In this document: piece after piece, positions 1,270 to 50,097 of the stretch | Layout of the letters: every line of letters starts with the position of its first letter | Numbering within the stretch: the first letter of the stretch is position 1 | Assembly: GCA_039944855.1 (NCBI GenBank) | Contig: JBDUXZ010000034.1 | Span: 62,001-126,000, forward strand | Length of the DNA stretch: 64,000 nucleotides | Direction of reading: 5' to 3' | Origin: Rhodothermales bacterium | Lineage (GTDB): Bacteria; Bacteroidota; Rhodothermia; Rhodothermales; JANQRZ01 | Program-made: the position numbers and the translations under genes | Notes under the pieces: generated by a model | Told to the model about the DNA's origin: nothing | Database searches by the model: none | What the model saw: only the letters and a program-made list of their open reading frames with translations

Positions 1270-1308
1270 ACCTATGCGCTTCCTTCCGTTCCGCTCGACT
1301 CTCCCATC

Positions 1309-6955: not shown

Positions 6956-7038
6956 GGGTTCGTATGCTCCACCCGTCGAGGGGCGCTCGCTCCAGCGACC
7001 CCGGCTCGCCGCACTTCCTTCACCCAGACGACCGCTTC

Positions 7039-22614: not shown

Positions 22615-25284
22615 ATGCGCGTCACCGCCGCCTCGCCCGTTCGTTCGTCCTCGCCCCGCCCGCTGCCGATGCCTGCCCGCCGCGTAGCCTGGGCCGTCCT
22701 GCTGGTAGCCGTGCTGCTCGCGGCCTCGCCTGCGTTCGCGCAGTGGTCCGAAGACCCGGCGCAGAACCTCACGGTAGCGGATCGTTCCGAGGGACAAACG
22801 CAGCCCAAGATCGCCCCGACCGACGACGGCGGGTTCTACGTGAGCTGGTTCGGCGGCGGGGGTGACGGCTACGACGTGTACCTCCAGCGGCTCGACGCGG
22901 ACGGCGTCGCGCAGTGGGCGGACGACGGCATCCGCGTCGCCGACCGCAGCTTCAGCTCGACGGAGGACTACGGGCTGGCGGTCGACGCGGACGGCAATGC
23001 GCTGCTGGCCTTCCGCGTGGCCGACGGCGACGGGCGGGCGCAGGCCGTCGCCAGCCTCGTCTCGCCCTCGGGCGACTTCCTCTGGGGCGAGCCCGGCGTG
23101 TTCGTCTCCGACGACCCGAGCGCGGCGGCATCGCCCCGCGTCGCAGGCATTCCGGGCGGCGGTGCCGTCGTCGCGTGGACGTCGTTCTCAAACGGCGGGA
23201 TCGTCGTGCAGAAGCTCGACGCGGCGGGCGCTCCGCAGTGGGGGGCGGACGGCGTCAGCCTCAGCACGCCGACGGGGTTCTTCTTCCTCGCCGACCTCCA
23301 CGCCGACGACGCGGGGAACGCGATCGTCTCCGGCTCGGCCCAGCTCTCGAACTTCGACCGGCGGCTGTGGGCGCAGAAGCTGGCCTCGGCCGACGGCGCC
23401 CCGCTGTGGGGCAGCGATCCGGTCGAGGTGTTCGACGGCAGCGACGGCGCGCTCCAGTTCGGCTACTTCCCGCCGTTCGTGCCCGACGGCAGCGGCGGGG
23501 CCGTCTTCGCGTGGTACCAGGTCGGCGGCATCGGCGAGGGGCGCGTCCGCGTCCAGCGCGTGCTCGCTGACGGCAGCGCGGCGTTTCCGCAGAACGGCGT
23601 CGAGGCCACCGCCGAGGCCGACCGGCAGCGTACGGCGCCGTCGGCCGCGTTCAATGAAGCCACGGGTGACGTGTTCGTGGTCTGGCCCGAGGAACTGCAG
23701 GTCGGGCAGACGCGCACGTTCGGGGTTTCGGCGCAGCGGATCGACGCGGCGGGCGCGCGGCAGTGGGGCGACGACGGGCAGCCGCTCGTCCCCCTCGGCG
23801 ATGCGCAGGCGAGCCAGGTGAGCGCGCTCGCGCTCGGTGCCGGCGCCGTCTTCGCGTGGTCGCTCGGCTCCGCTCCCGCCCCGATGCAGATCGAGTCCGC
23901 CCGGCTCGACGCGGACGGCGGTTTCGTGTGGCCCGACGAGATCGTGCCGCTCAAGACAGCTGCCACCTCGAACACGCGGATGCGGGGCGCGCTCAGCAGC
24001 CTCGGTTTCGCCGCGTATGTGTGGGCCGACGACAGCGGCGACGGGTCGAACCCCGACGCGATCAAAGCGCAGAACGTCAGCGCCGACGGCGCACTCGGCC
24101 CCATCGAAACCTCCAGCCTGACGTACCTCTACGACGACGGCGACGGCGACACCAACCAGGGGCCGCCCTCGACCTTCGACCCGGACATGCTGTGGGGCAA
24201 CTACTACCTCACGCAGCCCGGCGGCGAGATCCTCACCGAGATTTCCGTCGCCTTCGGCCCGACGTTCCCCTCGCTGGCTAATGGACCCGTTACGTTCTGG
24301 TTGCTCGACGATCCCGATGCCGACTTCGACCCGCGCAACGCGACGGCGCTCACGAGCGTCGAGGCCACGCCCGACGTGTTCAACGACAACTTCTTCACCG
24401 TCGGGATCCCGCCGACGCAGGTCAGCGGGGCCTTCTTCGTCGGCGTCAGCGCGCAGCTTCTCGGAGGGCAGGACCGCCCCGCCCGCGTCGACACCGATGC
24501 GGACGGCGATCGCTCGTGGTTCTTCTACGCGCCCGACATCGCTGCCGTGATCGACGACCTCGCGTCGGCGCCGTTCGGCACGCGGATGGACAACCCGGAG
24601 TTCGTCATCTTCCCCGGCGCGTTCATGATCCGCGCGACGGGGCAACTCGGCGAGGCCGTCGGTTCCGTCGCCTCCCTCGATGCGACAGAGGTGACACTCA
24701 CGCTCGCGCCCGGCGAGACGGCGAGCGCCGGCATTTCGCTCTCGAACCTCGGCAACAGCCCGCTCGTCTACGCCGTCACCGTCGCCCAGCAGGAACCGGC
24801 CGGAGACGACAGCGCGCTCACGGTCGAGCCGGATTCCGGCAGCGTTGCGGCGGGCGTTAGCGAGAGCCTGACGCTCCTAGCGGACGCGGCGACGCTCACC
24901 GAGGGGACGTACACGTTCGACGTGCTCATCGAGACCAACGACCCGCAGCAGCCGGCGTTGAACGTCGCGGTCACGCTCGTGGTGACGGGCGGGGTCGCGA
25001 CGGAGGACGGAGCGACGCCGGGCGCGTTCGCGCTCCGCCCGAGCTATCCGAACCCGTTCGAGCACACCTCGACGGTCGAGTTCGACCTACCGCAGCGGGC
25101 GCACGTCACGCTCGCCGTCTACGACGTGACCGGCCGCCGCGTCGCCACGCTCGTAGACCGCGAGCTGGAGGCAGGGACGCACCGCGCGACGTGGGACGCG
25201 GCCGGGATGGCCGCCGGGACGTACCTCTACCGGATGCAGGCGCGCGCGTTCGCGCAGACGCACCGGACGCTCCTCGTGCGGTAG
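22615..25284 (+). CDS. Large T9SS-secreted repeat protein
   Basis: An 889-residue exported protein. Two starts are possible: 22615, or the ATG at 22669 that gives a tighter signal peptide (MPARRVAWAVLLVAVLL...AFAQ). Residues ~45-500 contain several propeller-like repeats of the form RLDADG-x-QWxDDG, common in secreted Bacteroidota proteins. A region at ~690-800 resembles ASH/choice-of-anchor domains (SLSNLGNSPLVY, VLIETNDPQQP). The last ~80 residues are a T9SS type A sorting domain (YPNPFEHTST, VYDVTGRRVATL). No catalytic motif is visible. It ends 10 bases from the convergent small membrane-protein gene with no obvious terminator between. Confidence 0.82.
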   Translation: MRVTAASPVRSSSPRPLPMPARRVAWAVLLVAVLLAASPAFAQWSEDPAQNLTVADRSEGQTQPKIAPTDDGGFYVSWFGGGGDGYDVYLQRLDADGVAQWADDGIRVADRSFSSTEDYGLAVDADGNALLAFRVADGDGRAQAVASLVSPSGDFLWGEPGVFVSDDPSAAASPRVAGIPGGGAVVAWTSFSNGGIVVQKLDAAGAPQWGADGVSLSTPTGFFFLADLHADDAGNAIVSGSAQLSNFDRRLWAQKLASADGAPLWGSDPVEVFDGSDGALQFGYFPPFVPDGSGGAVFAWYQVGGIGEGRVRVQRVLADGSAAFPQNGVEATAEADRQRTAPSAAFNEATGDVFVVWPEELQVGQTRTFGVSAQRIDAAGARQWGDDGQPLVPLGDAQASQVSALALGAGAVFAWSLGSAPAPMQIESARLDADGGFVWPDEIVPLKTAATSNTRMRGALSSLGFAAYVWADDSGDGSNPDAIKAQNVSADGALGPIETSSLTYLYDDGDGDTNQGPPSTFDPDMLWGNYYLTQPGGEILTEISVAFGPTFPSLANGPVTFWLLDDPDADFDPRNATALTSVEATPDVFNDNFFTVGIPPTQVSGAFFVGVSAQLLGGQDRPARVDTDADGDRSWFFYAPDIAAVIDDLASAPFGTRMDNPEFVIFPGAFMIRATGQLGEAVGSVASLDATEVTLTLAPGETASAGISLSNLGNSPLVYAVTVAQQEPAGDDSALTVEPDSGSVAAGVSESLTLLADAATLTEGTYTFDVLIETNDPQQPALNVAVTLVVTGGVATEDGATPGAFALRPSYPNPFEHTSTVEFDLPQRAHVTLAVYDVTGRRVATLVDRELEAGTHRATWDAAGMAAGTYLYRMQARAFAQTHRTLLVR

Positions 25285-31600: not shown

Positions 31601-32686
31601 TCATTCCACGATCGTAACGCGGCGCGTCTCGGTGCGGTCGCCCGCCACGATACGGACGAGGTAGAGTCCGGCAGGCAAGCCGTCAGGCCGCCACGGCGCC
31701 TGCTGCGGGCCCGCCGCCCGCGTCTCATCGAGCACGGTGGCGACGATGCGGCCCAGCACGTCGAATACCTCGATGCGAACGGTCCCCGCCGTGGCCGGTG
31801 CGAAGCCGAGCGTCACGGTCTGCCCACGTCGGAGCGGGTTCGGATAGGCGGAGAGGAGCGCCTGCCCCGGCGCCGCGTCGGGCTCCGACGCCGTCGTCGG
31901 CGTCTGAACGACGTAGCCGCCGCTCTCGACGTTGCCCTCACCGTCGAGGTCGATGCTGGCGCCGAGCCCGGTGCGCGTCACGAACGAGATCGAGTACGAC
32001 GAATCCTGGCCGACGACGAACGAGGTGTCAGGGTCCGTGCTGACGACGCGAACGGTCTGGAACGTCCGCGACGAGAGCATGAGCGCCTCGGCCGAGCCGG
32101 CCGGCGTGACGAGCGTGCCCCACCCGACGACCTCGTTCTCGACGGTCTCCTCGATCCGAATCTGCTCGACGAAGGGGACGAATTGTAGCTCGTACGTGTC
32201 GGTCCACGCGGTCCCGAACGCCAGCGGGAACGCGAAGAGCCGATTGGGCGGTGCGAACCTCAGCAGGACGACGCCAGGCTCGCCGTCCACCTCGCCCTCG
32301 GCAGCGAAACCACGGATCGCGAGGGCGTCGGCGGTAGTGTCGTAGAACCCGAAGGCGACGGAGTCCGACTCGGGAATGGCCGTGCGGACGATGAGGTCGG
32401 CCTCGGCGAGGTGGGGGTCGTCGGAGCCGAGGACGGGCGGGGCGACGACCTCGGAGACGGCCGTGATGCCCACGTCGAACGAGAGGCCGGAGAAGTCCCA
32501 CGTCCGGTTCGCCCCGCCCGTCGCCGCGATCACGGCGAGGGCGGACGACGGCCCGGTCTCGAACGAGGTCGCCGTCGTGGGGCGGCTGAGCTGGCCGAGG
32601 ATGTCGGAGCGCGTGAGGGTGAGCTGCGCGTGCGCGGCCGGAGCGGCAGCGAGGAGCAGGAAAAGGAGTAGCGGTTTCAGGGTCAT
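31601..32686 (-). CDS. T9SS-secreted protein, unknown function
   Basis: 361 residues with signal peptide (MTLKPLLLFLLLAAAPAAHAQ) chosen as start; longer in-frame codons run antisense to real sequence. The body is beta-rich (~25-275) with no motif I recognise; phrases such as TWDFSGLSF and FGTAWTDTYELQF are common in secreted Bacteroidota proteins of unknown role. The last ~80 residues are a T9SS sorting domain with YPNPLRRGQTV, a Leu in place of the usual Phe. It lies 98 bases after the next T9SS gene and could share its transcript. Confidence 0.8.
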   Translation of the reverse strand: MTLKPLLLFLLLAAAPAAHAQLTLTRSDILGQLSRPTTATSFETGPSSALAVIAATGGANRTWDFSGLSFDVGITAVSEVVAPPVLGSDDPHLAEADLIVRTAIPESDSVAFGFYDTTADALAIRGFAAEGEVDGEPGVVLLRFAPPNRLFAFPLAFGTAWTDTYELQFVPFVEQIRIEETVENEVVGWGTLVTPAGSAEALMLSSRTFQTVRVVSTDPDTSFVVGQDSSYSISFVTRTGLGASIDLDGEGNVESGGYVVQTPTTASEPDAAPGQALLSAYPNPLRRGQTVTLGFAPATAGTVRIEVFDVLGRIVATVLDETRAAGPQQAPWRPDGLPAGLYLVRIVAGDRTETRRVTIVE

Positions 32687-32784
32687 GGTCGTGCATGCGC
32701 CGGAGGACGCGGGTGGAGGGGAGAAGGAGCCGGGCGGAACGGGCTCCGCCCAGCAGGGAACCAGCAGGGGAACCAGCGGAGGAG

Positions 32785-34158
32785 CTAGCGGAGGAGCGTG
32801 ACGCGACGCGTGAGCGTGAACCCCTCGCCACGGGCGCGGACGACGTAGAGCCCGCTCGGGAGTGCGACCGCCTCCAGCGCCAGCGTGCGCACCTCCCCCC
32901 CCGCGACGGCCCCGTCGAAGAGCGTCGCCACGTTCCGGCCGAGCGCGTCGAAGAGCTCGACGGTGACGCGTTGCGCGGCTGGCGCGGTGAGCACGAGCGC
33001 CGTGCTCGTGCGGAACGGGTTGGGATAAGCCGCCGAAAGCGCGAGCGCGTCGGGGGCCGCACCCGGATCGCCCGCCGTCACGGCGACGACCTGCGCCACG
33101 ATGCCCTCGTCCGTGCAGACGACCGCGACCTCGTAGGCTTCGGGGCTGACGACGATGTCTTCTGACTCGTAGCACCCCGAGACGCTGCCGTTGCCGGTGT
33201 GCGTGAGGACAGCGAAGGTCTGGCCCACCGTAGGCACGAACCCGTCGGCGAAGGTGAGGAAGAGCCGGCCGTTAACCGTCACGTCGCCGTTCTCGACGTC
33301 GAGTTGGTCGTACCCAGTGCCGGGCGCGGTGCCCGCGAGGTCGATCTGGAGGTCGTGCTCGTTCGTCGTCATCGGGAAGTCGCCCCGGACGGACAGGACG
33401 GCGGGCACGCCAGCCCCGTTGCCGGGTTGCGTGCTCCCCGCATTCGTGAACGCGATCCCGCTGTCCACGTCCAGCACGGACGTCCCGCGGAGCGTGGCGG
33501 TGTTGCCCTGCGTGAGCTGGCCGGGGCTGACGAACTCGAGCCCGCCGCCGTTGACGACGAGGGCGCCGGCGTTGTTGAACTGGACGTTCATCGCCGTGCC
33601 ACCGACACCCTCGGTGACCCACGTCCCCCCGTTCGTAACGACGGGCTCGGTCGATGTGACGCTGACGCGGGCGATGGAGTGCGAGCCGACGGCGCTGTCG
33701 GTGAAGGTCCGGCCGGTGCGGTTGAGCAGGACAGCGCCGTCCGTCATGTTGATGTTGCCGTTGGACCACGTGGCGCCGCCCGCGAGGTCGAGCGTGCCGG
33801 AGATCCGCATCGAGACCTGGCTGCTGAACGTGCTCTCGCCGAAGACGGTGACGGCGGCGCCCAGCGTCCCGCCATCGATCCAGGCGAAGGCGCCGTTGAC
33901 GGTGAGGGCACCGCTGCCGGTGAGCGTGCCCCGGCTGAAGGTGAGGGCACCGATCGTGGCGGCGGTGTTGAGCGTGACGACGGCGTCGAACGTGTTGACG
34001 GTGACGTCGTCGTCGGCGCCGGGGACGGTGCCGCAGGACCAGTTCGTGGCGACGTTCCAGTCGCCCGTGCCGCCCGTCCACGCGCAGTCGGTGGCGAGGG
34101 CGGGGCGGAAGAGCGGGAAGCTCGCGAGGAGGAGCAGGAGGGTTGTAGTCGTGCGCAT
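32785..34158 (-). CDS. T9SS-secreted beta-helix-like protein
   Basis: 457 residues. The start at 34158 gives a signal peptide (MRTTTTLLLLLASFPLF...LAT). CAWTGGTGDWNVATNWSCGTVPGADDDV is the opening seen in parallel beta-helix and autotransporter-adhesin-like proteins. It is followed by short G/T/N-rich repeats and a DLQIDLAG...YDQLDVENGDVTVNGRL segment like those that close such helices. The C-terminus is a T9SS sorting domain (YPNPFRTSTA). It may be an adhesin or surface fibre. A weak promoter-like GAGCTTCG lies at 34198-34191 on the minus strand. Confidence 0.8.
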   Translation of the reverse strand: MRTTTTLLLLLASFPLFRPALATDCAWTGGTGDWNVATNWSCGTVPGADDDVTVNTFDAVVTLNTAATIGALTFSRGTLTGSGALTVNGAFAWIDGGTLGAAVTVFGESTFSSQVSMRISGTLDLAGGATWSNGNINMTDGAVLLNRTGRTFTDSAVGSHSIARVSVTSTEPVVTNGGTWVTEGVGGTAMNVQFNNAGALVVNGGGLEFVSPGQLTQGNTATLRGTSVLDVDSGIAFTNAGSTQPGNGAGVPAVLSVRGDFPMTTNEHDLQIDLAGTAPGTGYDQLDVENGDVTVNGRLFLTFADGFVPTVGQTFAVLTHTGNGSVSGCYESEDIVVSPEAYEVAVVCTDEGIVAQVVAVTAGDPGAAPDALALSAAYPNPFRTSTALVLTAPAAQRVTVELFDALGRNVATLFDGAVAGGEVRTLALEAVALPSGLYVVRARGEGFTLTRRVTLLR

Positions 34159-37053: not shown

Positions 37054-38118
37054 ATGACTGATCAGAAACGCGTCCTCGTCACCGGAGCCGGTGGCTTCAT
37101 CGGCCACCACCTCGTCAACTATCTCAAGGACAAGGGCTACTGGGTCCGCGGCGTCGACATCAAGCGCCCTGAGTTCGAGGCCACGCGCGCCGACGAGTTC
37201 GACCTCCTCGACCTCCGCCGGTGGGACGCCTGCCTCGAAGCCGTGCGTCCGACCCCGGACGGCCGGAAGATCGATCACGTGTACGCCCTCGCGGCCGACA
37301 TGGGCGGGATGGGCTTCATCTCGGCCAACCACAGCCTGATCCTGCACAACAACGTCCTCATCAACACGCACACGATCGAGGCGGCGCGCAAGGCCGGCGT
37401 CGAGCGCTACTTCTACACGTCGAGCGCGTGCGTCTACCCCGAGCACCTCCAGACCTCGGCCGACGCCGCGGCGCTGAAGGAGGACGACGCCTACCCGGCG
37501 GCCCCGCAGGACGCCTACGGATGGGAGAAGCTCTTCACCGAGTTGCTGTGCCACTACTACTCCGGCGACTACGGCATGGAGACGCGGACCGTCCGCTTCC
37601 ACAACGTCTACGGCGAACTCGGCACGTGGGAAGGCGGACGCGAGAAAGCGCCCGCCGCGATGTGCCGGAAGACGGCCTACGCCAAGCTTCTCGGCGGCAA
37701 GGAGGGCAGCCCCGGCGGCTCGCCGCAGATCGAGATCTGGGGCGACGGCGAGCAGACCCGCTCGTTCATGCACGTCGACGACTGCGTCGAGGGCGTCTAC
37801 CGCCTGATGATGAGCGACTACAGCGAGCCGCTCAACCTCGGCCGCGACCGGATGGTGACGATCAACAAGCTCGCCGACATCGCCGCCGACGCCGCCGGCA
37901 TCGAGATCGAGCACGTCCACATCGACGGCCCGATGGGCGTGCGCGGGCGGAACTCGGATAACTCGAAGCTCCGCGAGGTCCTCGGCTGGGAGCCGAAGAT
38001 CGCGCTCGAAGAAGGCCTCGCCCGGACGTACAACTGGATCGAGGCGCAGCTCCGCGACAAGCTCGCCCGCCAAGAGCGTGATGCCGAGCGCGACGCCGAG
38101 TTGGCCGAAGTCGCCTGA
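37054..38118 (+). CDS. GDP-mannose 3,5-epimerase-like NAD-dependent epimerase
   Basis: A 354-residue extended short-chain dehydrogenase. VTGAGGFIGHHLV (9-21) binds NAD, ALAADMGGMGFIS (~78) and SSACVYP (~127) are characteristic of GDP-mannose 3,5-epimerases, and the catalytic YxxxK is YGWEK (~154). GTWEGGREKAPAAMCRK (~190-206) and the C-terminal FMHVDD...MGVRGRNSDNS also match that family. It would supply GDP-L-galactose or a related sugar for exopolysaccharide. WecB follows after 70 bases that include a promoter box and a palindrome, so joint transcription is uncertain. Confidence 0.85.
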   Translation: MTDQKRVLVTGAGGFIGHHLVNYLKDKGYWVRGVDIKRPEFEATRADEFDLLDLRRWDACLEAVRPTPDGRKIDHVYALAADMGGMGFISANHSLILHNNVLINTHTIEAARKAGVERYFYTSSACVYPEHLQTSADAAALKEDDAYPAAPQDAYGWEKLFTELLCHYYSGDYGMETRTVRFHNVYGELGTWEGGREKAPAAMCRKTAYAKLLGGKEGSPGGSPQIEIWGDGEQTRSFMHVDDCVEGVYRLMMSDYSEPLNLGRDRMVTINKLADIAADAAGIEIEHVHIDGPMGVRGRNSDNSKLREVLGWEPKIALEEGLARTYNWIEAQLRDKLARQERDAERDAELAEVA

Positions 38119-38134
38119 TTCACCCTCCCCGCGA

Positions 38135-38142
38135 TACCTTGT
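38135..38142 (+). promoter_or_regulatory. Candidate -7 box TACCTTGT
   Basis: TAnnTTnn box 46 bases before wecB. Its last two bases are the first two of the adjacent palindrome, so the predicted transcript would start inside that repeat. Confidence 0.4.
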
Positions 38143-38168
38143 AGGGGCGGCCACGCGGTCGCCCCTAC
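38141..38168. repeat. 28-bp palindrome, GTAG...CTAC type
   Basis: Arms GTAGGGGCG and CGCCCCTAC are perfect, with one internal mismatch (left half GTAGGGGCGGCCAC). It has the same length and ends as the palindrome at 3215 and related sequence to the degenerate copies near 45349. Followed by CTCTTTTTATCC, it could also act as a terminator or attenuator ahead of wecB. Confidence 0.7.
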
Positions 38169-38188
38169 CTCTTTTTATCCCCTCCGCC

Positions 38189-39274
38189 ATGCACATCCTC
38201 AGCGTCGTCGGCGCCCGTCCCAACTTCATGAAGGTCGGCCCCCTCCACCGGGCCCTCGCCCACGTCGACGGCGTCCGCTCGCGCATCGTCCACACCGGGC
38301 AGCACTACGACGAGCGGATGAGCGACGTCTTCTTCCGTCAGCTCGAACTCCCCGAGCCCGACGTGTACCTCGGCGTCGGCAGCGGCTCGCACGCCGAGCA
38401 GACGGGCCGCGTGATGATGGCCTTCGAGACCGTGGTGATGGAGGAGAAGCCGGACCTCGTCATCGTCGTCGGTGACGTGAACTCGACGCTCGCGGCGGCG
38501 CTCGTGGCGACGAAGCTGCACGTGCCCGTCGCCCACGTCGAGGCCGGGTTGCGGAGCGGGGACCGGCGGATGCCGGAGGAGATCAACCGGCTCGCCACCG
38601 ACGCGATTGCCGACTACCTCTTCGTCACGGAGCAGAGCGGACGCGATCACCTCCGTCGAGAAGGCGTGCCCGACGAGCGTGTCCACTTCGTCGGGAATGT
38701 GATGATCGACTCGCTCGTGCACTTCCGCGCGAAGGCTGCCGATTCCACGGTCTTGGAGGACGTGGGCGTCGAGCCGAAGGGCTACGCGCTCGTCACGATG
38801 CACCGGCCGTCGAACGTGGACGACCCGGCGCGGCTCGCCGAACTCGTCCGCATGCTCGAAGCCGTCGCCGAGCGCTATCCCGTGGTCTTCCCCATCCACC
38901 CGCGCACCCGAAAGAACCTCACCACGGCCGGGCTCATGGACCGGCTCGACGCGCTCAACGCCGTGCATCTGCTCGATCCCGTGGGCTACCTCGAATTCCT
39001 CAAGCTCATGGAGCACGCGGCGGTCGTCGTCACCGATTCCGGCGGGATTCAGGAGGAGACGACGTACCTCGGCGTCCCGTGCCTCACGCTACGCTCCAGC
39101 ACCGAGCGTCCGGTGACGGTGGACGTCGGGACGAACGTGTTGCTTCCGCTGGATGCAGATCGGGTGGCGGAGCGTGTGCGCGACGTGGCGGCGGGCCGGT
39201 TCAAGCAGGGCTCGGTGCCGCCGCTGTGGGACGGGCGAGCCGCGGAGCGCATCGCCGCCGTGCTCGTGCGGTAG
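38189..39274 (+). CDS. wecB: UDP-GlcNAc 2-epimerase (non-hydrolysing)
   Basis: 361 residues, the usual length of WecB/MnaA, which interconverts UDP-GlcNAc and UDP-ManNAc for surface polysaccharide synthesis. Typical motifs: VGARPNFMKVGPLHRAL at the N-terminus, HTGQHYDERMS, GDVNSTLAAALVA, HVEAGLRSGDRRMPEEINR, TMHRPSNVDD and DSGGIQEETTYLGVPCLTLR. The ATG at 38189 starts exactly at the conserved MHILSVVGARPN. Upstream codons in the frame overlap the preceding gene. It ends 20 bases from the convergent Wzi-like gene, whose product may handle the resulting polymer. Confidence 0.93.
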   Translation: MHILSVVGARPNFMKVGPLHRALAHVDGVRSRIVHTGQHYDERMSDVFFRQLELPEPDVYLGVGSGSHAEQTGRVMMAFETVVMEEKPDLVIVVGDVNSTLAAALVATKLHVPVAHVEAGLRSGDRRMPEEINRLATDAIADYLFVTEQSGRDHLRREGVPDERVHFVGNVMIDSLVHFRAKAADSTVLEDVGVEPKGYALVTMHRPSNVDDPARLAELVRMLEAVAERYPVVFPIHPRTRKNLTTAGLMDRLDALNAVHLLDPVGYLEFLKLMEHAAVVVTDSGGIQEETTYLGVPCLTLRSSTERPVTVDVGTNVLLPLDADRVAERVRDVAAGRFKQGSVPPLWDGRAAERIAAVLVR

Positions 39275-39294
39275 CGACGCCGTGACCCCCGACA

Positions 39295-40983
39295 CTAGTA
39301 GCGCGTGCTCTGGAAGGGGAGGCCCCAGCGAAGCGCGGCGGACGGGGCGACGTAGCGGTCGAGCCCGCGCTCGGCGTCGTCCACCGACTCGGCGCGGAGG
39401 GTGCCTTCGACGAAGAGGGACGGGAGCAGCTCGTAGCCGATGCGAGCTTCGGCGAGCACGAGGTTCTGGCGGATCCCGCGCAACGTCTCTGCCGAGCGGT
39501 CGAGGCTCCGGTCGCGTTCGCTGTACGGCCGGGTCGGGTCGGCGCCGAAGATCTCGCCCTCGGGGTCCCGGCCCCGCGTCGTGAACGCGAGGTTGACGGC
39601 GGCCAGCAGGCGCGCCCACGGGCGGTACGTGGCGAAGACGGCGAGGTCCGACGAGTTCGGCCCGGCCGGGTGGCCGAGGTAGTCGCCGTAGTGGACGTAG
39701 GCCGTCGCCTCGGTCCGGTGCCCATAGAGGAACGGCCGCTGCCGCGCGTACTCGACACGGAGGTCGAAGTCGCGTAGCCGCGTCTCGCCGATGCCCGGAT
39801 CGACGAGGTAGAGCCCGACGAGGTAGCCCCACTTGTTGCCCCACCAGTCGTTCCCGAACTCGCTCACGGTCAACTCGTCGAGGATGCCCTGCGCGTAGAG
39901 TTCGACGCCCGGCGTGGCGACCCACGAGACGCCGGCACCGAGGAGCGCGTTGTCGGGGCTGCCGAGGTCGTGCTCGACGGCGCGGTAGAAGATGATGGGG
40001 TTGAGGTAGGCGAGGTCGAAGCCCGGGCGGCGGCCGGCGCCGGTGGAGTCCGAGGCGAAGATGACGGACTCGAACAGCTCGACCTGGACGCGCGCGGGGA
40101 GGTCGATGGCGAGCCGGTGGAACACGCCGTACTTGCGGGGAACGATGGAGTCTTGCGGCTCGTCGGCCGGGCGGAACGCGGCGAACTGGGCGAACAGGTT
40201 CGTGTAATGGAGCCGCCAGAACTGCGTCCGAATCTGGAGTTGGTCGTAGACCGTGGCGTAGTCGGAGAGGTGGAGGCTGGTGCGGCCGTAGCCCCACTCG
40301 TTCCGGTCGCGCCCGAAGCGCGCTTCGAAGTACTTGCTCCTAAAGCCCACGACGCCGGTCGCGACGAAGTAGTCGTAGGTCGTGCCGTCCTGAATCTTGC
40401 TATTCCCGAGCCGGGGGGCGGTGAGCACCCTTTGGTCGTACGCTGTCGCTACGGGCCGCCGCTGGTTCTCTTCGAGCCGTGCCTCGAAGAAGATGTGGTC
40501 CCCGACGTGGCCGGCGGCGCGGACTCCGCGCGTGTTCTGCCAGAGCGGGACCGTCGCCTCGCGGTCCTCCCGCGCCGACTGCCGGGCCCGTCCATACGAG
40601 AGGTTCGCGAGGGGCTCGACTTCAAGGGCGTAGTCGTCAGCGCGGACGGAGTAGAAGCTGTTGCCGTCGCCGTAGAGGAACGGGGTGAGGCGGCGGACGG
40701 TGGCGACGCCGGGGCCGGCGGTCCGCCCGGTGAGGCGCCGGAGCAGGGCGCGGTCGGCGCTGCCGAGCGGGCCCCCGACGGCGAGCGCCGAGTCCGCATA
40801 GGCGCGGGCGGTGTAGGCCGAGAGCGGGCGGGCGCCGAGGTGGGCACCGGGGAGCCGGCCGAGCACGCGCTGGCGTTGGAGCACGCGGCTGAACTCGTCG
40901 TCGGGTTGCAGCAGCCCTTCCTGCTGGGCATGCACGGCCGGGGCCGCGAGGAGCAGGGCGAAGAAGAGAGCGACGGTCCGCAT
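39295..40983 (-). CDS. Wzi-like capsule assembly outer-membrane protein
   Basis: 562 residues with signal peptide (MRTVALFFALLLAAPAVHAQ). The body alternates polar and aromatic residues in strands, as in an outer-membrane beta-barrel, and ends in the aromatic STRY. Features such as YDYFVATGVVGFRSKYFEARFGRDRNEWGYG and FDLAYLNPIIFYRAVEHDLGSPDNALLG are typical of the capsule assembly Wzi family in Bacteroidota. Wzi proteins anchor capsule at the outer membrane. Convergent wecB supports a surface-polysaccharide context. Confidence 0.8.
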   Translation of the reverse strand: MRTVALFFALLLAAPAVHAQQEGLLQPDDEFSRVLQRQRVLGRLPGAHLGARPLSAYTARAYADSALAVGGPLGSADRALLRRLTGRTAGPGVATVRRLTPFLYGDGNSFYSVRADDYALEVEPLANLSYGRARQSAREDREATVPLWQNTRGVRAAGHVGDHIFFEARLEENQRRPVATAYDQRVLTAPRLGNSKIQDGTTYDYFVATGVVGFRSKYFEARFGRDRNEWGYGRTSLHLSDYATVYDQLQIRTQFWRLHYTNLFAQFAAFRPADEPQDSIVPRKYGVFHRLAIDLPARVQVELFESVIFASDSTGAGRRPGFDLAYLNPIIFYRAVEHDLGSPDNALLGAGVSWVATPGVELYAQGILDELTVSEFGNDWWGNKWGYLVGLYLVDPGIGETRLRDFDLRVEYARQRPFLYGHRTEATAYVHYGDYLGHPAGPNSSDLAVFATYRPWARLLAAVNLAFTTRGRDPEGEIFGADPTRPYSERDRSLDRSAETLRGIRQNLVLAEARIGYELLPSLFVEGTLRAESVDDAERGLDRYVAPSAALRWGLPFQSTRY

Positions 40984-41095: not shown

Positions 41096-41125
41096 GACCG
41101 GCGGCCCTGTAGAGAGCCGCCGGTC
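41096..41125 (-). terminator. Terminator after the TPR gene
   Basis: A 10-bp perfect stem (GACCGGCGGC with GCCGCCGGTC) and 10-base loop start 21 bases beyond the stop; read on the minus strand it is followed by TTTGTCTTT. Confidence 0.85.
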
Positions 41126-41146: not shown

Positions 41147-42466
41147 TTACCGTACGGTCGTCGAGCAGCTTCCCCACCCGTAGGACGCGCTGACGGACTG
41201 GCCGGGCTTCCACCCGAGGAAGAAGTACTCCTCCTGCGAGGGCGCGGCGCGGCTGTAGGTGCCGGCGGCGTTGCGGGCCGCGCTCGACACCTGCGGATCG
41301 CTGGCGGCGCGGTTGAAGTAGTCGACGGCGCACCAGTAGGCGGCGCGGGAGGGCACGTCGCCGCCCCGGACCGACGAGGCAATCGCGCTGCCGAGGATGT
41401 AGAGCGACGGGCCGTGGTTCGAGTCGATCTCCAGCGCCTTGCGCGCGAAGTTTGACGCCGTGGCAAGCTGGCCCTGCTGCTGCTTCATCACCGCGATGTT
41501 GTAGTAGATGTCGCGCTGCTCCGTGGGGTCCTCAGCGAGTTCGAGGGCGCGCTCGTAGAGGCGCTGCGCCTCGTCGAAGTCGCCGTCGTCGGTGGCGCCG
41601 CGGGCGAGGGTCCGCAGGAGCGAGGGCGTCGGGTCCATCTCCACGAGGACGTCGATGAGCTGGGCCTGCAGCGCGTCATCCTTCAACTCCGGGTTCTGGT
41701 TGAGCGAGAACAGCGTCTTGACGTCCTCCTCGCCGAGGGCAGTGGGGTCGGCGAGGAATTTCTCCTTGAGGAAGGCGTACTGCTCACGCGGGGTCGTGAT
41801 GAGGCTGTCCATCAGGCCCTGGATGTAGGCGGGGTCGTCGGCCTTCGGCATGAGCGTGCCGGTGAGGTAATCGCGCGTAGCGGCCTTCTCCTCGGGCGTG
41901 TCAGCCTGAACCGCGCGGCGCGTCCGCTCACCGGCGATGAAGTTGATGAAGTAGTCGCCGAGGGAGTCCGGCTGGAGCTCGAAGGCGCGGAGGTAGAGGT
42001 CGTAGACCTGGCCCTGTTGGTCGCTGAGCATCTCGTTGCGGGACTGGATGAAGCGGCCCTGGCGGAGGACGTAGTCGTATTCACTCACCTCCACACCGTC
42101 GTCCTGTAACATGGACGGTCCCTCTTCGAAAAGGGCGAGGGCTTTGCCGATGAATTCCTGCTGCTGAGCGGGATCTTCGGCCCGCACGGCGAGGCTGTCG
42201 TAGACCTCGATGCCGCGGCGGATGTTGCGGTCGTCGGGCGTGGGGCCGCCGAAGCCGGGCGCGCACTCCAGGATCCAGAGGAGCTCCGGGAGGGCCGCTT
42301 CGTAGTCGCCGGCCTTATACGACTCGTAATAGAGGCTGTAATGGATGCGCCGCTCGTTCTCGTCGTCGGTGCACTCCACGGCCGTGTCCGCCTGCGCGGA
42401 GGCTGTGGGGGCGAGGCCTGCGAGGAGCAGGGCGAGGAAGGCGAGCGCGGAGAGGGTGCGGTTCAT
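41147..42466 (-). CDS. Exported TPR protein
   Basis: 439 residues with signal peptide (MNRTLSALAFLALLLAGLAPTASAQ). Tetratricopeptide repeats are evident in the N-terminal part (YESYKAGDYEAALPELLWIL) and C-terminal part (ARGATDDGDFDEAQRLYERALELAED, MKQQQGQLATASNFARKALEID). It ends with a short Ser/Gly-rich tail containing a Cys. Such proteins act as periplasmic scaffolds in Bacteroidota. It lies 39 bases after the barrel gene on the same strand and ends at a strong terminator, so it is probably the last gene of that transcript. Confidence 0.8.
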   Translation of the reverse strand: MNRTLSALAFLALLLAGLAPTASAQADTAVECTDDENERRIHYSLYYESYKAGDYEAALPELLWILECAPGFGGPTPDDRNIRRGIEVYDSLAVRAEDPAQQQEFIGKALALFEEGPSMLQDDGVEVSEYDYVLRQGRFIQSRNEMLSDQQGQVYDLYLRAFELQPDSLGDYFINFIAGERTRRAVQADTPEEKAATRDYLTGTLMPKADDPAYIQGLMDSLITTPREQYAFLKEKFLADPTALGEEDVKTLFSLNQNPELKDDALQAQLIDVLVEMDPTPSLLRTLARGATDDGDFDEAQRLYERALELAEDPTEQRDIYYNIAVMKQQQGQLATASNFARKALEIDSNHGPSLYILGSAIASSVRGGDVPSRAAYWCAVDYFNRAASDPQVSSAARNAAGTYSRAAPSQEEYFFLGWKPGQSVSASYGWGSCSTTVR

Positions 42467-42505
42467 CGGTCGGTCGGTTGCTGGCGGATGGCGGTGGGGG
42501 CGGCG

Positions 42506-43819
42506 TCAGCCCAGTCGGCGCTGGCGGAACCAGCGCTCGCCGAAGTTGATCGTGGCCGAGCCCTTAATAAACAAATCGCGGACCAAACCCTGCTCCGTCG
42601 TCCCCCGCGTTCCGATCTCGAAACCGAGGTCGAAGCGGGCGGTGGGAAGCACAGCCGGGAGGCTCACCCCGCCGGTGAGGGCGAGCGTGGTGATGGATTC
42701 GCTTGCGCCGTCGTCGAGGCCGGAGGCGTCGAAGTAGGCGCGGTCGTAGTAGCCGCCGAGGCGGTACGCAGTCCGGGCAAAATACGGACGCAGCCGGTTG
42801 TTGCCCGCCGGGAGGAACTGAAAACCTCCGCCCACGCGGAGCCGGTCGCGGAGCTGGTCGATGCCGGCGTCGGCGTCGAACCCGCCGAAGGCGAAGTCGC
42901 TCTCGAAGCCGCTCCACGGCTCGTAGCGGACGTCGGCGGCGAGCGTCCAACGAGCGTCGGGCACGTACGAGAACCCGGCCGCGAGCTGGAGGGGGACGGT
43001 GACGTCGCCGGAGCGCTCCACCCCGAGCGTGTCCTGGTCGAGGGAGAACCCGAGCGTCCGCACGCGCTTCCCGCTGAGCGTCGTCGGGAGCGAGAGCGAG
43101 GCGCCGATGGAGAGGGCGTCCTCTTCCCCGAGCAGGCCGACGGTGGAGACGAGTGCGCCGACGGTGGCGCTGACGCCGCTCAGCTTCGTCGACTCCACGG
43201 CGCGCGTTTCGGCGATGCTGGTGTTCGTGAATTCCGTCCGCTGGAGGTAGTCGATCGTGCCGAAGAGCACGTCGACACTCGCGCCGACGGAGACGCCCGG
43301 GCCGATCCGGTAGCCGAGGCCGAGCTGGGCCTGCTGGAGCCCGCCGTCGCCCTCGAAGTTGACGCGGTAGCCGAGGGAGTCGTCGGGGAAGTCGGGGTCG
43401 CGCACGAAGCCGTCGCGCACGGCGAGGTAGTTGACGCGCGTGAACGGGCGGAAGCCGAGCGTGAGCCCGAGCCGGTTCGAGAGGAGCGGCACGCCGAACT
43501 GGAGCCCCGCGAGCGAGCCGCTCGAGAGTTGGGCCTGGTCGCCGAGCGCGTTCTCCGTCTCGACGCCCTCGATCTGCGCCGCGATGCTGAATTGCGTGAG
43601 GGCCATGTCGCTCCAGAGCGCCGGGTTGTCGAGCCCGTTGTACGTCGCCGAGCGGAGGGCGACGGCTGCCCCGCCCATCATCTGCGACTGCGACGACGAG
43701 AACGACAGCCGCTCGCCGAGCCCGAACCGGGAGTAGGTCGTCCCGTAGTTGCGGTTGCTTTGAGCGTCGGCCGCCGTCGTGCCGGCGATCAACAGGAGGG
43801 AGAGGAACAGAATGCGCAT
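42506..43819 (-). CDS. FadL/OmpP1-like outer-membrane barrel
   Basis: 437 residues with signal peptide (MRILFLSLLLIAGTTAADAQ). YSRFGLGERLSFSSSQSQMMGGAAVALRS...NGLDNPALWSDM is the N-terminal hatch-like pattern (shared with FadL/OMPP1 proteins), followed by alternating strands. FadL proteins pass hydrophobic compounds across the outer membrane. It ends RQRRLG rather than in an aromatic residue. It sits between the DUF4270-like lipoprotein (61-base gap) and the TPR gene, forming a likely three-gene envelope operon. Confidence 0.75.
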   Translation of the reverse strand: MRILFLSLLLIAGTTAADAQSNRNYGTTYSRFGLGERLSFSSSQSQMMGGAAVALRSATYNGLDNPALWSDMALTQFSIAAQIEGVETENALGDQAQLSSGSLAGLQFGVPLLSNRLGLTLGFRPFTRVNYLAVRDGFVRDPDFPDDSLGYRVNFEGDGGLQQAQLGLGYRIGPGVSVGASVDVLFGTIDYLQRTEFTNTSIAETRAVESTKLSGVSATVGALVSTVGLLGEEDALSIGASLSLPTTLSGKRVRTLGFSLDQDTLGVERSGDVTVPLQLAAGFSYVPDARWTLAADVRYEPWSGFESDFAFGGFDADAGIDQLRDRLRVGGGFQFLPAGNNRLRPYFARTAYRLGGYYDRAYFDASGLDDGASESITTLALTGGVSLPAVLPTARFDLGFEIGTRGTTEQGLVRDLFIKGSATINFGERWFRQRRLG

Positions 43820-43880
43820 GAGCTATTGACGTTGGCGGAGCGGCAGCAGAAGAAAGACACGCGGGCGGCGGAAACGTCGC

Positions 43881-45143
43881 CTACCCGTCGGCCGGGATCA
43901 GGAAGATGGTAGCTCGCGGGCCCTCGCACGGCATGCCGCTCTCCGTGCCGCATCCCGCCGACGCCTGGACGAGTGGCGCCACATCGAGGCTGGATGTCGC
44001 GCGGGAGAAGCCGATCAGAAAGCCGTCTACCTCGGCGCGGGACAGGACCTGATCTTGGAAGATCTCGTTGATCCGGGACGAGGCGAAGGTGTAGGTTTGC
44101 GTCTCTTCGTTAAGCGTCGCCTCGGCGAACGGGACCGGGCTCCCGTTGCTATCCGTGATGATCACGTCCACAGCTGGGGTTTGTGTCGTATCAGTCACGA
44201 AGCCGTAGAGCGCGAGCTGGCGGGCGAAGGGGCGGGCGAAGCCAGCGGGCAGGTTCGTCGCCGCTGCTGCCGTGTCCGCGTTGACGCGCAGGAACACCGC
44301 GTTGATCGCCGACTGCCCGAGCGGGTCGAGGTCGAAGAGCAGTTCGAGGCCGCGGCTGGTGCCGTCTTGCAGGAGGAGGAGGTCGTCGGCCGTTGGGGCA
44401 GTCTCCGGGCCTTCGATGCCGGAGAACAGCTCGGAGACGCCATAGCGCACGGTGTCCTCAGCGGAGATGAGTTCGAGCGTGGATGCCCCGGTGAAGCCGT
44501 ATACGGCGCTTGCCCCTTCGCCTGGGCTGAGCTGGAAGCCGTGGAACAGCGTCGAGAAGCTCGTGCTGCGGAGCGTCGTGTCATTCGCCGCGATCCACGC
44601 GGCCGGTAACGCGACCTCGACGAGGGAGTCACCGGCGGCCACGTCGAAGGAGGTGATGAGCTCGTCCATCACGGGGAAGAGCGTGTCCGCCTCGGCCCCT
44701 ACGGCGTTCCACTCCTCCGAGATCTGCCGGAGGTCGAGCCGCGTCGGCATCGTCGTGTCGCCATAGACGTAGGTGCGGTTGAGGCGGAGGATGGCCTGCT
44801 CGATGGGGCGGTCGCGGAAGCCCTCCGGGAGGTTCTGCGGCGGGAGGAGGTCGAGGTACGCGCGGGCCGAGGTCGTCCCGAAGAGCGGGTCGTCCACGCG
44901 GCCGGCGAGAGTGCGGAAGGCGCTGAAGCCCTGCGCGGTCAGGAAGGCCCCGGTGACGTCGGTGAGGGGCGCGAACGCGGTCTCGGCGGGGAGGCTGCGG
45001 GCGCGCGGGTCGTTCTCCCCAGGATCGAGCACGGTCAGGCCGACGCCGGAGGGGTCTTCGCACGCCGCGAGGAGGAGCAGGCACAGGGCGGCTGCGCCGA
45101 ACGTGCTGGCGAGGCGGATACGAGCGGGCCGAAGTCGGCGCAT
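43881..45143 (-). CDS. DUF4270-like lipoprotein
   Basis: A 420-residue lipoprotein (signal ending LLLLAACEDPSG). The start CEDPSGVGLTVLDP after the lipid site and later YLDLLPPQNLP, EQAILRLNRTYVYGDTT and a predicted all-beta body resemble DUF4270 proteins of Bacteroidota. In Flavobacteriia these typically sit beside a half-length glycogen-synthase gene, as I recall; such a gene lies 400 bases upstream here. Function is unknown; the fold hints at a surface adhesin. Family assignment is moderate because I judged it by the N-terminal pattern and context. Confidence 0.62.
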   Translation of the reverse strand: MRRLRPARIRLASTFGAAALCLLLLAACEDPSGVGLTVLDPGENDPRARSLPAETAFAPLTDVTGAFLTAQGFSAFRTLAGRVDDPLFGTTSARAYLDLLPPQNLPEGFRDRPIEQAILRLNRTYVYGDTTMPTRLDLRQISEEWNAVGAEADTLFPVMDELITSFDVAAGDSLVEVALPAAWIAANDTTLRSTSFSTLFHGFQLSPGEGASAVYGFTGASTLELISAEDTVRYGVSELFSGIEGPETAPTADDLLLLQDGTSRGLELLFDLDPLGQSAINAVFLRVNADTAAAATNLPAGFARPFARQLALYGFVTDTTQTPAVDVIITDSNGSPVPFAEATLNEETQTYTFASSRINEIFQDQVLSRAEVDGFLIGFSRATSSLDVAPLVQASAGCGTESGMPCEGPRATIFLIPADG

Positions 45144-45191
45144 AAGAGACGAGCGTGGGTGAGGCAGGGCGGATAGGGAGGTCTAACGCGG

Positions 45192-45220
45192 ACGCGCCGG
45201 TCCTAGTATGGCCGGCGCGT
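45192..45220. repeat. Inverted repeat between DUF4270-like and GT5-like genes
   Basis: A perfect 9-bp stem (ACGCGCCGG with CCGGCGCGT) and 11-base loop, 48 bases upstream of the DUF4270-like start. It has no T-tract; it could be an operator or an RNA hairpin in the leader. Confidence 0.5.
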
Positions 45221-45348
45221 GCAATTCAAAGGAACGGCCGGGGGCGGGGGGCAGGAGGGAAGAGTTGGAGAAAAGAGGGGTGGGAGTGTGGAGGTGTGGA
45301 GGTGTGGGCGGAAGCTTGGAAAACTACCGAGGCCGTCGCGCCGAGATC

Positions 45349-45422
45349 GTAGGGGCGATCCCATGTGGTCGCCCTCGTGAGGCCGAGCGCTCCGTGCCGT
45401 AGGGGCGAGGCTCGCCTCGGTC
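45349..45422. repeat. Degenerate GTAGGGGCG palindromes (two units)
   Basis: Unit one (45349-45378) begins GTAGGGGCGA and ends TCGCCCTCGT; unit two (45399-45422) begins GTAGGGGCGAGG and continues CTCGCCTCGG. Both share the GTAGGGGCG arm of the intact palindrome at 38141 but have decayed or mismatched right arms. Confidence 0.55.
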
Positions 45423-45473
45423 GGGAATGGCACGTTGCCAGATAAGGCGATTCGGGGTCGCCCGTACACAGAG

Positions 45474-45503
45474 ACGCCCCGGCGGTAATGCCCGCCGGGG
45501 CGT
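45474..45503 (-). terminator. Terminator after the GT5-like gene
   Basis: A 12-bp perfect stem (ACGCCCCGGCGG with CCGCCGGGGCGT) with a TAATGC loop, about 40 bases beyond the stop. It separates this gene's transcript from the DUF4270-like gene. Confidence 0.75.
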
Positions 45504-45543
45504 TCGGAGCGGTTGTCCACCACCCGCTGTCCACGGTAACTGA

Positions 45544-46299
45544 TCAGGCGGCGACCTCGTCGCCGATCTCGCGGTAGAGCGCGGCGGCCTTCTCGGCGAT
45601 CTCTTTGGGCTCGCCGGTGAGGTCGGTGCCGCCCTCGCCGGGGCGGCCCGCGCCGAAGGCGACGGCGTCGGCGTAGGCCATGCCGAGGTCACGCAACTCC
45701 TGATCGGCCGCATCGGCCGGGAGGCCGAATGCCTCGGCTTCGTCCGCCGTGAAGCGCACGTCGACGTCGGCGGCGTCGGGGGTGTAGACGGACTTCGTGC
45801 GCTCGAACAGCTCGTGATCGGCGAACTCGTTTTTGAGGAGGAGCGGCACGGCGCCGGTGATCCACCCGGTGGCGTGGACGATGTCGGGCGACCACCCGAG
45901 GTTCTCGACCGTCGTGAGCGCGGCGCGGGCGAAGTAGAGGGCGCGCTCGGCGTTGTCCTCGAAGAGCTTCTCCGTCTTCCGGTCCTGGAACAGCCCCTTC
46001 CGCTTGAAGAAGTGGACGTTGTCCATGAAGTAGACCTGGAGCCGGATGCCTGGGATGGACGCCACCTTCACCTTCAGCGTCTCGGTGCGGTCGCCCGTCT
46101 CGATCTCGCTGCCCGAGAGGCGGATGACTTCGTGGAGGCGGTTCCGCCGCTCAGAGACGGTCCCGTAGCGCGGCATGATGATGCGGGTTTCGAAATCGCC
46201 CAGTTCCTGGAGGTGCTCCGGCAGCTCGCGGGCGAGGCGAGCGGTCTGCGTCGATTTAGAGAAGGGGGCGACTTCGCCTGCTACGAACAGTACTTTCAT
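45544..46299 (-). CDS. Half-length glycogen/starch synthase-like protein (GT5 N-domain)
   Basis: 251 residues matching only the N-terminal ADP-glucose-synthase domain of GlgA (usually ~480 residues in total). VLFVAGEVAPFSKSTQTARLARELPEHLQE (split here) is the GT5 opening, with Ser in place of the Lys-x-Gly-Gly loop residues. PDIVHATGWITGAVPLLLKNEF replaces the usual DWHTAL. The C-terminal GT domain is absent, so normal glucan synthesis is unlikely. Similar short proteins occur beside DUF4270 genes in Flavobacteriia, so this looks like a conserved family rather than a broken gene. Function unknown. Confidence 0.75.
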   Translation of the reverse strand: MKVLFVAGEVAPFSKSTQTARLARELPEHLQELGDFETRIIMPRYGTVSERRNRLHEVIRLSGSEIETGDRTETLKVKVASIPGIRLQVYFMDNVHFFKRKGLFQDRKTEKLFEDNAERALYFARAALTTVENLGWSPDIVHATGWITGAVPLLLKNEFADHELFERTKSVYTPDAADVDVRFTADEAEAFGLPADAADQELRDLGMAYADAVAFGAGRPGEGGTDLTGEPKEIAEKAAALYREIGDEVAA

Positions 46300-48763: not shown

Positions 48764-49324
48764 CTAGAATCCGGTCGAAGGGACGTTCGTTGCGAACTCA
48801 GCCGAGAACGTGCCGGCAACTGTCACGGCCCCCACAGGGCCGCCGCCGCTGATGGCCTGGCCGGTAAACGTGAAGGACCCCGCCACGCGGTCGCTCGACG
48901 ACGAGGTGATCGTGAGCGTGCCGCTGCTCGACCCGAGGAACGTGCCGCTCGTGGTGTTAGCGAAGTCGCTGACGTACGCGGCTGTGAAGTCCATGTCGCT
49001 GGGGTCGAACGAGTACGTGCCGGGGCTTGGCCGGTCACCATTCCGGCCGAATGCGACCAACTCGCCGTTGAGGTTGCCGGAGGTGGGGAGCGCTCCTTCG
49101 AAAATGCCGATCGAGAAGCTGCTTCCGTCTTCGGCCACGCCGAACACGGCGCTGCCGTCGAACGATGAGCTGAATCCGCCGCTGACCGTGACGCTGGAAC
49201 TGCCGATGTTGGTACCGTTGCCGTTGCCGTCGCCGTCTCCATCACCGTCGCCGTCGGAGTCGCAGGCGGCGAGGGGGAGGACGAGGAGCAGCGTGAAGAG
49301 GAGGCGGAAGGAGAGACGTAGCAT
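48764..49324 (-). CDS. Small lipoprotein, paralogue family B
   Basis: 186 residues: lipoprotein signal ending VLPLAAC, then a (DG)n/(GN)n repeat linker (DSDGDGDGDGDGNGNG), then a beta-sandwich-like domain. Segments PSPGTYSFDP, SSGTLTITSSSSDRVAGSFTFTG and VTVAGTFSAEF match equivalents in the lipoprotein at 49391 and, more loosely, the one at 29543. The Asp-Gly linker is encoded by a CCGTCG-type hexamer array that could vary in length. Function unknown; probably a surface or periplasmic lipoprotein. Its product ends at a strong terminator. Confidence 0.78.
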   Translation of the reverse strand: MLRLSFRLLFTLLLVLPLAACDSDGDGDGDGDGNGNGTNIGSSSVTVSGGFSSSFDGSAVFGVAEDGSSFSIGIFEGALPTSGNLNGELVAFGRNGDRPSPGTYSFDPSDMDFTAAYVSDFANTTSGTFLGSSSGTLTITSSSSDRVAGSFTFTGQAISGGGPVGAVTVAGTFSAEFATNVPSTGF

Positions 49325-49390: not shown

Positions 49391-50011
49391 TCAGCCCCCG
49401 CTCGTCCCGCGCGGGAATCCGTCGGGGAAAGCCCGAATCTGGGCGTCAAATGCCCCCCGAACCGTCGCCGCCTGCTCGGCCTCATCGTCCTCGCCGAACC
49501 CGATGCTGCGTGCGCGGAACTCGAACCGGCCGGCGATGCGCTCATCGCTCGACGCCTCGACGGTGAGCGTGCCGGACTCGGCGACGAGCGTCGTTCCGAC
49601 GCCTGGGAAGCCCGTGCGGTCGAAGGAACTGAAAAAGGCCGAGAACTCGGTGGGGTCGAATAGGCCCCCGAGCGTGTACGTGCCGGGCTCGGGCCGCTCG
49701 CCGTCGCGCATGAGCGAGATGAAATGGCCCGGCCCCGTTCCCTGGAACGCACCAAGCGTGATCATAAAGCTCGTGCGGAGCGAGTCGATAGTGAACAGGC
49801 TGTCCTCCCCGACAAAGACGGAGTCGAGGACGATGAGTTGGCCGGGACTCGCGCTGGCGAGGCCGTCGAACGAGAGCCGGTCGCCGCCGTCGATGGTCAC
49901 GGTGGCGCTGAAGCGGCCGGGTTGGGCGATAAGCCGCCCGTCGTCATCATTGGAATCACAGGCCGCGAGGAAGAGCACGGCCGTCAGGAGGAGAAGCGAA
50001 TTCGCGCGCAT
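49391..50011 (-). CDS. Small lipoprotein, paralogue family C
   Basis: 206 residues. The ATG at 50011 opens a lipoprotein signal ending LFLAACDSNDDDG; upstream codons are excluded by the candidate promoter at 50057. The domain has PEPGTYTLGG, ESGTLTVEASSDERIAGRFEFRA and ATVRGAFDAQ, aligning with the next gene downstream (48764). The two are adjacent, 66 bases apart, and probably arose by tandem duplication. No enzymatic motif. Confidence 0.78.
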   Translation of the reverse strand: MRANSLLLLTAVLFLAACDSNDDDGRLIAQPGRFSATVTIDGGDRLSFDGLASASPGQLIVLDSVFVGEDSLFTIDSLRTSFMITLGAFQGTGPGHFISLMRDGERPEPGTYTLGGLFDPTEFSAFFSSFDRTGFPGVGTTLVAESGTLTVEASSDERIAGRFEFRARSIGFGEDDEAEQAATVRGAFDAQIRAFPDGFPRGTSGG

Positions 50012-50049
50012 CGTAGGCTCGGGAATCAGAGGAAAAAGGATAACGGGAG

Positions 50050-50057
50050 CGAAGGTA
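50050..50057 (-). promoter_or_regulatory. Candidate promoter TTG-N21-TACCTTCG
   Basis: TTG at 50081-50079 on the minus strand, a 21-base spacer, then TACCTTCG, 38 bases before the lipoprotein start. Confidence 0.45.
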
Positions 50058-50097
50058 GAAAAACCGCAACGCATTCTGCAATGGCGACGAGCTATCG

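Follow-up and report, generated by a model that had tools for sequence, protein, structure and literature searches.

The β-barrel assembly machinery (BAM) of Bacteroidota was described in October 2025 to carry BamG and BamH as canopy subunits (PMC12611786, PMC12578637). Its core is reported to consist of BamA, BamD, BamG and BamH, of which BamG is itself a FadL-family barrel, and BamG and BamH are both essential in Flavobacterium johnsoniae (PMC12611786). Here, we analyzed 64,000 nucleotides from a Rhodothermales bacterium (assembly GCA_039944855.1, contig JBDUXZ010000034.1, positions 62,001 to 126,000), referred to as the window, in which four genes encode the N-terminal half of a glycosyltransferase family 5 (GT5) glycogen synthase (half-GT5), a DUF4270-like lipoprotein, an outer-membrane barrel and an exported tetratricopeptide repeat (TPR) protein. 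A preliminary description had placed these genes on one strand, and all four open reading frames were indeed found on the minus strand at the positions in Table 1. The block very probably represents a Rhodothermales-type canopy module of the Bacteroidota BAM complex together with two conserved partners, half-GT5 and the TPR protein.

Identification of BamG and BamH

The barrel was matched by the NCBIfam model for BamG (NF053685) over residues 23-434 with an E-value of 1e-73 and 248.6 bits, the curated cut-off being 250; in the same-class genome G073 this cut-off is exceeded (260.9 bits). For comparison with the complexes solved from Flavobacterium, Bacteroides and Porphyromonas we used PDB entries 9n2d, 9hiv/9his/9hj3 and 9hjm, with which the barrel aligned at E-values of 3e-28 (9hiv_F), 5e-20 (9n2d_B) and 8e-18 (9hjm_F). 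The alignments to these three distinct BamG sequences are full-length, the best stretch covering residues 8-436 of 437, and take in the start of the mature protein as well as the C-terminal tail. As no match to the BamG model was found elsewhere in the genome, the window barrel is the sole one. Judged from these sequence comparisons, the barrel is BamG of the Bacteroidota BAM complex. The alternative of an ordinary FadL-type transporter for hydrophobic compounds, paired with a lipoprotein of its own, draws on the weak, sub-threshold match to the Pfam family FadL/Toluene_X and on BamG itself being such a barrel; however, the full-length alignment to BamG chains including both ends, on which we rejected a plain FadL transporter, and the adjoining bamH gene make this highly improbable.

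For the lipoprotein, DUF4270 (Pfam) gave 16 bits against a cut-off of 27 with the window protein alone and matched 25 of the 38 proteins in the BamH family alignment (E 1e-3 or better). A profile of the 38 relatives (A1) matched solved BamH at 3e-68 (9n2d_C, 'Bam H'), 5e-37 and 1e-19. The first of these values is partly circular, because iteration had brought Bacteroidia-like BamH rows into the profile. Cleaner tests are the fold and a profile of only nine same-order sequences (A4), which matched Porphyromonas gingivalis BamH (9hjm_G) at 3.6e-7. With an AlphaFold2 model of the window protein (mean predicted local distance difference test score, pLDDT, of 88.7), Foldseek returned the three solved BamH chains at the top (E 1.5e-14 to 7.5e-13; next match 4e-3). 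Structural alignment to these chains gave Z-scores of 22.3, 20.6 and 19.9 over 332-340 residues (next 9.2) at an identity of 12-14%, which marks the window protein as strongly diverged. In surface lipoproteins, two or more of the six positions behind the lipoprotein cysteine have been described to be acidic (PMC12578637); Cys28 is invariant across the 38-sequence alignment and directly precedes Glu and Asp in the window protein (C-E-D), in agreement with this rule. The BamH profile has one match in the genome. We conclude that the lipoprotein is BamH of the Bacteroidota BAM complex. BamA and BamD are encoded elsewhere in the genome and, therefore, all four core subunits are present. As a separate observation, the genome of Arcticibacter svalbardensis (that of locus L160) carries two bamH genes side by side and divergent (G101:C78:58968-61922).

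These identifications overturn the earlier proposal that the block forms an undescribed envelope or surface-assembly system. While the Pfam names for the barrel and the lipoprotein, weak and generic, would leave room for a system distinct from BAM, sequence and fold identify the two proteins as BamG and BamH, and no other match to either was found in the genome that could serve BAM. We thus consider such a system extremely unlikely.

Linkage of half-GT5 and bamH across the phylum

We searched 99 genomes of the phylum, all of which match GT5; the best match lay in a reading frame shorter than 400 residues in 48 (short-match genomes) and in one of at least 488 residues in 51 (long-match genomes). 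Gene context was compiled for half-GT5 in 40 of the 48 short-match genomes as well as in the window and G073 (L108), six being left out, and for full-length GlgA in 20 of the 51 long-match genomes. Judged by gene content, the more distant half-GT5 genomes would be Bacteroidia-like and group f16 Chlorobium-like. In 37 of the 40 loci, bamH is the next gene downstream of half-GT5 on the same strand. A second set of named genomes, spanning Rhodothermales, Balneolales, Cytophagales, Sphingobacteriaceae, Saprospiraceae and one Flavobacteriales bacterium, had half-GT5 beside bamH at 69 of 80 loci, with one further locus lying at a contig end. The pairing of a half-GT5 with a DUF4270-like lipoprotein, which the preliminary description associated with Flavobacteriia, is therefore recurrent.

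The same arrangement is seen in other classes with the full-length enzyme. Outside f16, bamH follows full-length glgA downstream on the same strand at 17 of 18 loci, and bamG is present at 15 of them. Both f16 loci have neither gene; Chlorobiota are described to be without BamG and BamH (PMC12611786), which fits the Chlorobium-like assignment of this group. As a control, second, distant GlgA genes had a BamH or BamG match at none of six loci. Several of the outgroup loci contain a gene for a HAD phosphatase of about 190 residues between full-length glgA and bamH (L121:9922-10494, L126:6953-7528, L127:6671-7243), which could, as a guess, be GmhB-like.

Bacteroidia-like genomes have panC/panD divergent from the half-GT5-bamH pair, glmS downstream of bamH in many cases, and bamG elsewhere. 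Pantothenate and coenzyme A genes lie beside both BAM blocks in these genomes (L106:3414-10001, L054:5251-11740), namely panC/panD at the one and coaX before bamG at the other.

Origin and catalytic status of half-GT5

The match of half-GT5 to GT5 is confined to the N-terminal domain (PF08323, E 8e-42, profile positions 1-208 of 239). In the starch synthase model of 489 positions, only residues 1-173 are covered, and a half-GT5 profile aligns with its positions 2-218 to residues 7-231 of a 494-residue full-length relative. The last helix of half-GT5 (234-247) shows a weak likeness to the C-terminal helix of full-length enzymes (E 0.056), which would hint that an internal segment was deleted rather than the C-terminus merely cut off.

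In active GlgA, the N-terminal domain bears the motif KxGG and the C-terminal GT-B domain the motif EPCG with the catalytic glutamate. Neither was detected by pattern in any of 40 halves, and the window protein has a substitution at the KxGG site (Table 1). Among 20 full-length relatives, by comparison, KxGG is present in 16 (13 by pattern and three more, L128, L134 and L135, by eye) and EPCG in 13. The four that have lost KxGG, two each from groups f21 and f16 (L129, L133, L131 and L132), are full-length GlgA-like proteins that possibly represent intermediate stages of inactivation. Because both the C-terminal domain and KxGG are absent, half-GT5 should not be an ordinary synthase, in line with the preliminary description, which had taken the protein for an N-terminal half unable to work as one. 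Inspection revealed no signal peptide in half-GT5, whose sequence opens with the first Rossmann strand; this places it in the cytoplasm, and it is not expected inside the BAM complex itself. As predicted from its sequence, half-GT5 is very likely a catalytically dead cytoplasmic protein, that is, a pseudoenzyme. No full-length GT5 match was found in the window's genome, the assembly of which is 97.9% complete.

A split glycosyltransferase, with half-GT5 being active in trans together with a GT-B C-terminal domain encoded by another gene, would be compatible with the high conservation of the acceptor-side domain. The loss of KxGG in 40 of 40 halves argues against it, as does the lack of a partner half-domain gene among the annotated recurrent neighbors of the 40 loci (whole genomes were not searched for one), so that we regard this explanation as improbable.

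A 67-row, 171-column tree of the N-terminal domain groups the 41 halves into one clade (support 100/99) nested inside the full-length group. Since the halves thus sit within full-length, bamH-linked forms, the linkage came first and a single truncation later. Selection was assessed by the ratio of nonsynonymous to synonymous substitution rates (omega) for 12 hand-picked pairs, of which those with saturated synonymous sites (dS -1) yield no omega. Seven close pairs with usable dS gave values of 0.026-0.088 for half-GT5, and the two pairs that include the window, both distant, gave 0.19 and 0.36. Half-GT5 is 88-95% identical where BamH is only 32-48% identical (L043/L044, L046/L049, L045/L047). 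Half-GT5 is under strong purifying selection, and a dead enzyme that changes so slowly should have a job.

That job could, however, be separate from BAM. Half-GT5 may have its own conserved role, e.g. in glycogen metabolism or as a binding protein, and may lie beside bamH solely because the two have not been separated since the ancestral operon or because bamH is transcribed from the half-GT5 promoter. This explanation has real weight, though we would stop short of preferring it. A full-length GlgA of the ancestral type with intact motifs already occupies the same place, genes for 4-alpha-glucanotransferase and GlgB lie upstream in one own-class family, and BamH has diverged much faster than half-GT5, so the constraints on the two differ. 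In contrast, the pair has been kept in Bacteroidia-like genomes while nearly everything else around it changed. The family in question (L043:9398-14017), with genes for a ComA-like phosphosulfolactate synthase, 4-alpha-glucanotransferase and GlgB followed by half-GT5, is the only place seen where half-GT5 still lies beside glycogen genes.

The TPR protein

The TPR repeats are clear by Pfam. The gene lies 3' of bamG at 17 of 20 own-class loci and at six of the 18 full-length GlgA loci outside f16. In Bacteroidia-like genomes, where bamG is usually away from half-GT5, 8 of 22 bamG regions have a TPR homologue as the next gene after bamG; in many others an LptC-like lipoprotein gene takes this place (annotated in L086, elsewhere assigned from length and sequence). 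An annotated example (L106) reads coaX-bamG-TPR-lptC-CNNM gene-SurA-like gene. Sixteen named genomes all contain BamG and BamH, and the TPR gene is beside bamG in four of them. bamG and the TPR gene are thus a recurrent pair of their own, which the window's class combines with the half-GT5-bamH pair in a single block.

A fold search returned generic TPR superhelices only, and no function can be derived from the fold. A replacement of BamD by the TPR protein was ruled out, as the genome has its own BamD above the family cut-off. The TPR protein is predicted to be a periplasmic, conserved partner of bamG. Its most likely role after export would be that of a periplasmic scaffold or chaperone that serves BAM or the BAM clients, which we consider evenly balanced.

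Layout and surroundings of the block

The genes are spaced by 400 nt (half-GT5/bamH), 61 nt (bamH/bamG) and 39 nt (bamG/TPR gene). The 400-nt gap is peculiar to this genome, since 37 other loci have half-GT5 and bamH between -155 and 191 nt apart; these values exclude separate transcription as a general rule. The preliminary description had argued for separate transcription from a terminator after the GT5-like gene, which fits at most this genome, given that the genes are close or overlapping in most relatives. A strong hairpin does exist in the gap (folded stretch with z -4.4). However, it has no T run and was not listed by the terminator scan, and its T-poor tail makes it a doubtful terminator. 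The hairpin at the end of the block, in contrast, was listed by the scan (folded stretch with z -4.2).

Table 1 Features of the block within the window
Feature	Position	Strand	Description
half-GT5	45544..46299	minus	251 aa, N-terminal domain of GlgA-type glycogen synthase, KSTQ instead of KxGG
bamH	43881..45143	minus	420 aa, DUF4270-like surface lipoprotein, lipobox Cys28 followed by E29, D30
bamG	42506..43819	minus	437 aa, FadL-fold outer-membrane barrel of BAM complex (by sequence)
TPR protein gene	41147..42466	minus	439 aa, signal peptide, without lipobox (by inspection)
12-bp hairpin inside 400-nt gap 3' of half-GT5	45474..45503	minus	T-poor tail
Terminator-like hairpin 3' of TPR gene, block end	41096..41125	minus	terminator scan and folding

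The next gene after the TPR gene encodes a Wzi-like protein (39295-40983; PF14052, E 3.6e-14). No homologue was found in the 40 loci examined, and the gene was not counted into the block. Together with genes for a sugar-nucleotide epimerase and a UDP-GlcNAc 2-epimerase, this outer-membrane protein gene occupies 37054-40983, adjoining the block. On the other side, tandem small lipoproteins are encoded on the minus strand (48764-49324 and 49391-50074), one with an Asp-Gly repeat directly after the lipobox; the second gives a weak match to DUF6252. Three window proteins (3364-6141, 22615-25284, 31601-33175) end in a PF18962 type IX secretion sorting domain, and cargo of this secretion system is therefore expected in this genome. 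Two GHL10 glycosyl-hydrolase-like proteins occur in one neighborhood (1228-3156, 6964-8595).

Discussion

Our findings suggest the following arrangement. By homology and fold with the solved complexes, BamG would sit in the outer membrane behind BamA, and BamH would be anchored at the BamA-BamG interface, arching over the folding site of client barrels. By sequence and tree, half-GT5 descends from a full-length glycogen synthase already linked to bamH. The donor-binding C-terminal domain was lost a single time, in the ancestor common to Rhodothermia-like and Bacteroidia-like lineages, and the truncated protein, cytoplasmic and very likely catalytically dead, was then retained under strong selection.

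The connection of half-GT5 to BAM is one that we infer from linkage. Since BamG and BamH are essential in F. johnsoniae, a neighbor that bamH has retained in different classes suggests itself as a candidate regulator or helper of outer-membrane assembly. We tentatively favor a regulatory or ligand-binding job, in which half-GT5 might make expression or supply of the envelope genes beside it depend on carbohydrate state. The more specific version, in which a dedicated envelope pseudoenzyme senses a glucan or sugar nucleotide and tunes the production of BAM canopy subunits or envelope precursors while the TPR protein is an unrecognized periplasmic BAM factor, is a rather unlikely possibility as a whole.

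Several observations weigh against the BAM module with two conserved partners. The window BamG scores 1.4 bits below the curated cut-off of its model, and the window BamH alone has no significant sequence match in PDB, where a single-sequence search gave chance-level matches only, or to DUF4270. Three of the 40 half-GT5 loci (L042, L056, L061) have no BamH neighbor, although two of these genomes (G007, G096) carry bamH elsewhere, directly before bamG (L099, L109), and 10 of the 80 named loci lack BamH despite room for it. Matches to the TPR profile are patchy, occurring in 13 of 24 genomes (some being plainly other TPR proteins) and in 5 of 16 in a second search, and the TPR protein is thus not a universal subunit. 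Term searches of the main texts did not find it in PMC12611786 (TPR, tetratricopeptide) or PMC12578637 ('TPR' only), and the main texts of both do not mention glycogen, GlgA or glycosyltransferase.

The core of the block is ordinary, consisting of BamG and BamH of a known machine, while the roles of half-GT5 and the TPR protein are undescribed in the literature searched; one open-access library yielded no account of either beside bamH/bamG, nor of a glycogen-related pseudoenzyme. For the specialist, the surprising part is half-GT5 with its single truncation, strong selection and long linkage, any mechanism being hypothetical. The module is of candidate relevance to gut, oral and environmental Bacteroidota, and its TPR gene is a specific candidate for a periplasmic BAM factor yet to be found. 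Furthermore, many would-be 'glycogen synthase' genes in the phylum code for only one half of the protein, and glycogen storage should not be deduced from their presence.

Two described organisms may offer the same gene pair. In Bacteroides thetaiotaomicron, BT_4306 is BamH (PMC12578637) and BT_4307 has been named a potential glycogen synthase, from which glycogen storage was inferred (PMC10797578). Going by the adjacent numbers, the two may be a bamH/half-GT5 pair. In F. johnsoniae, bamH is fjoh_0823, and the promoter upstream of fjoh_0824 was used for gene depletion (PMC12611786); from the numbering, fjoh_0824 may be the half-GT5 gene and its promoter that of bamH.

Compared with GlgA/GT5 starch synthases of the PRK14098 type (NF010698), half-GT5 has the N-terminal domain in common but lacks the C-terminal domain and KxGG. 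With the Bacteroidota BAM complex, the block shares the BamG barrel by full-length homology, the BamH fold (Z 20-22) and the acidic residues after the BamH cysteine. A putative operon has been reported there for the paralogue pair BamG2/BamH2 (PMC12578637). Unlike the described complexes, the window unites half-GT5, bamH, bamG and the TPR gene in one block, with a BamH that retains 12-14% identity.

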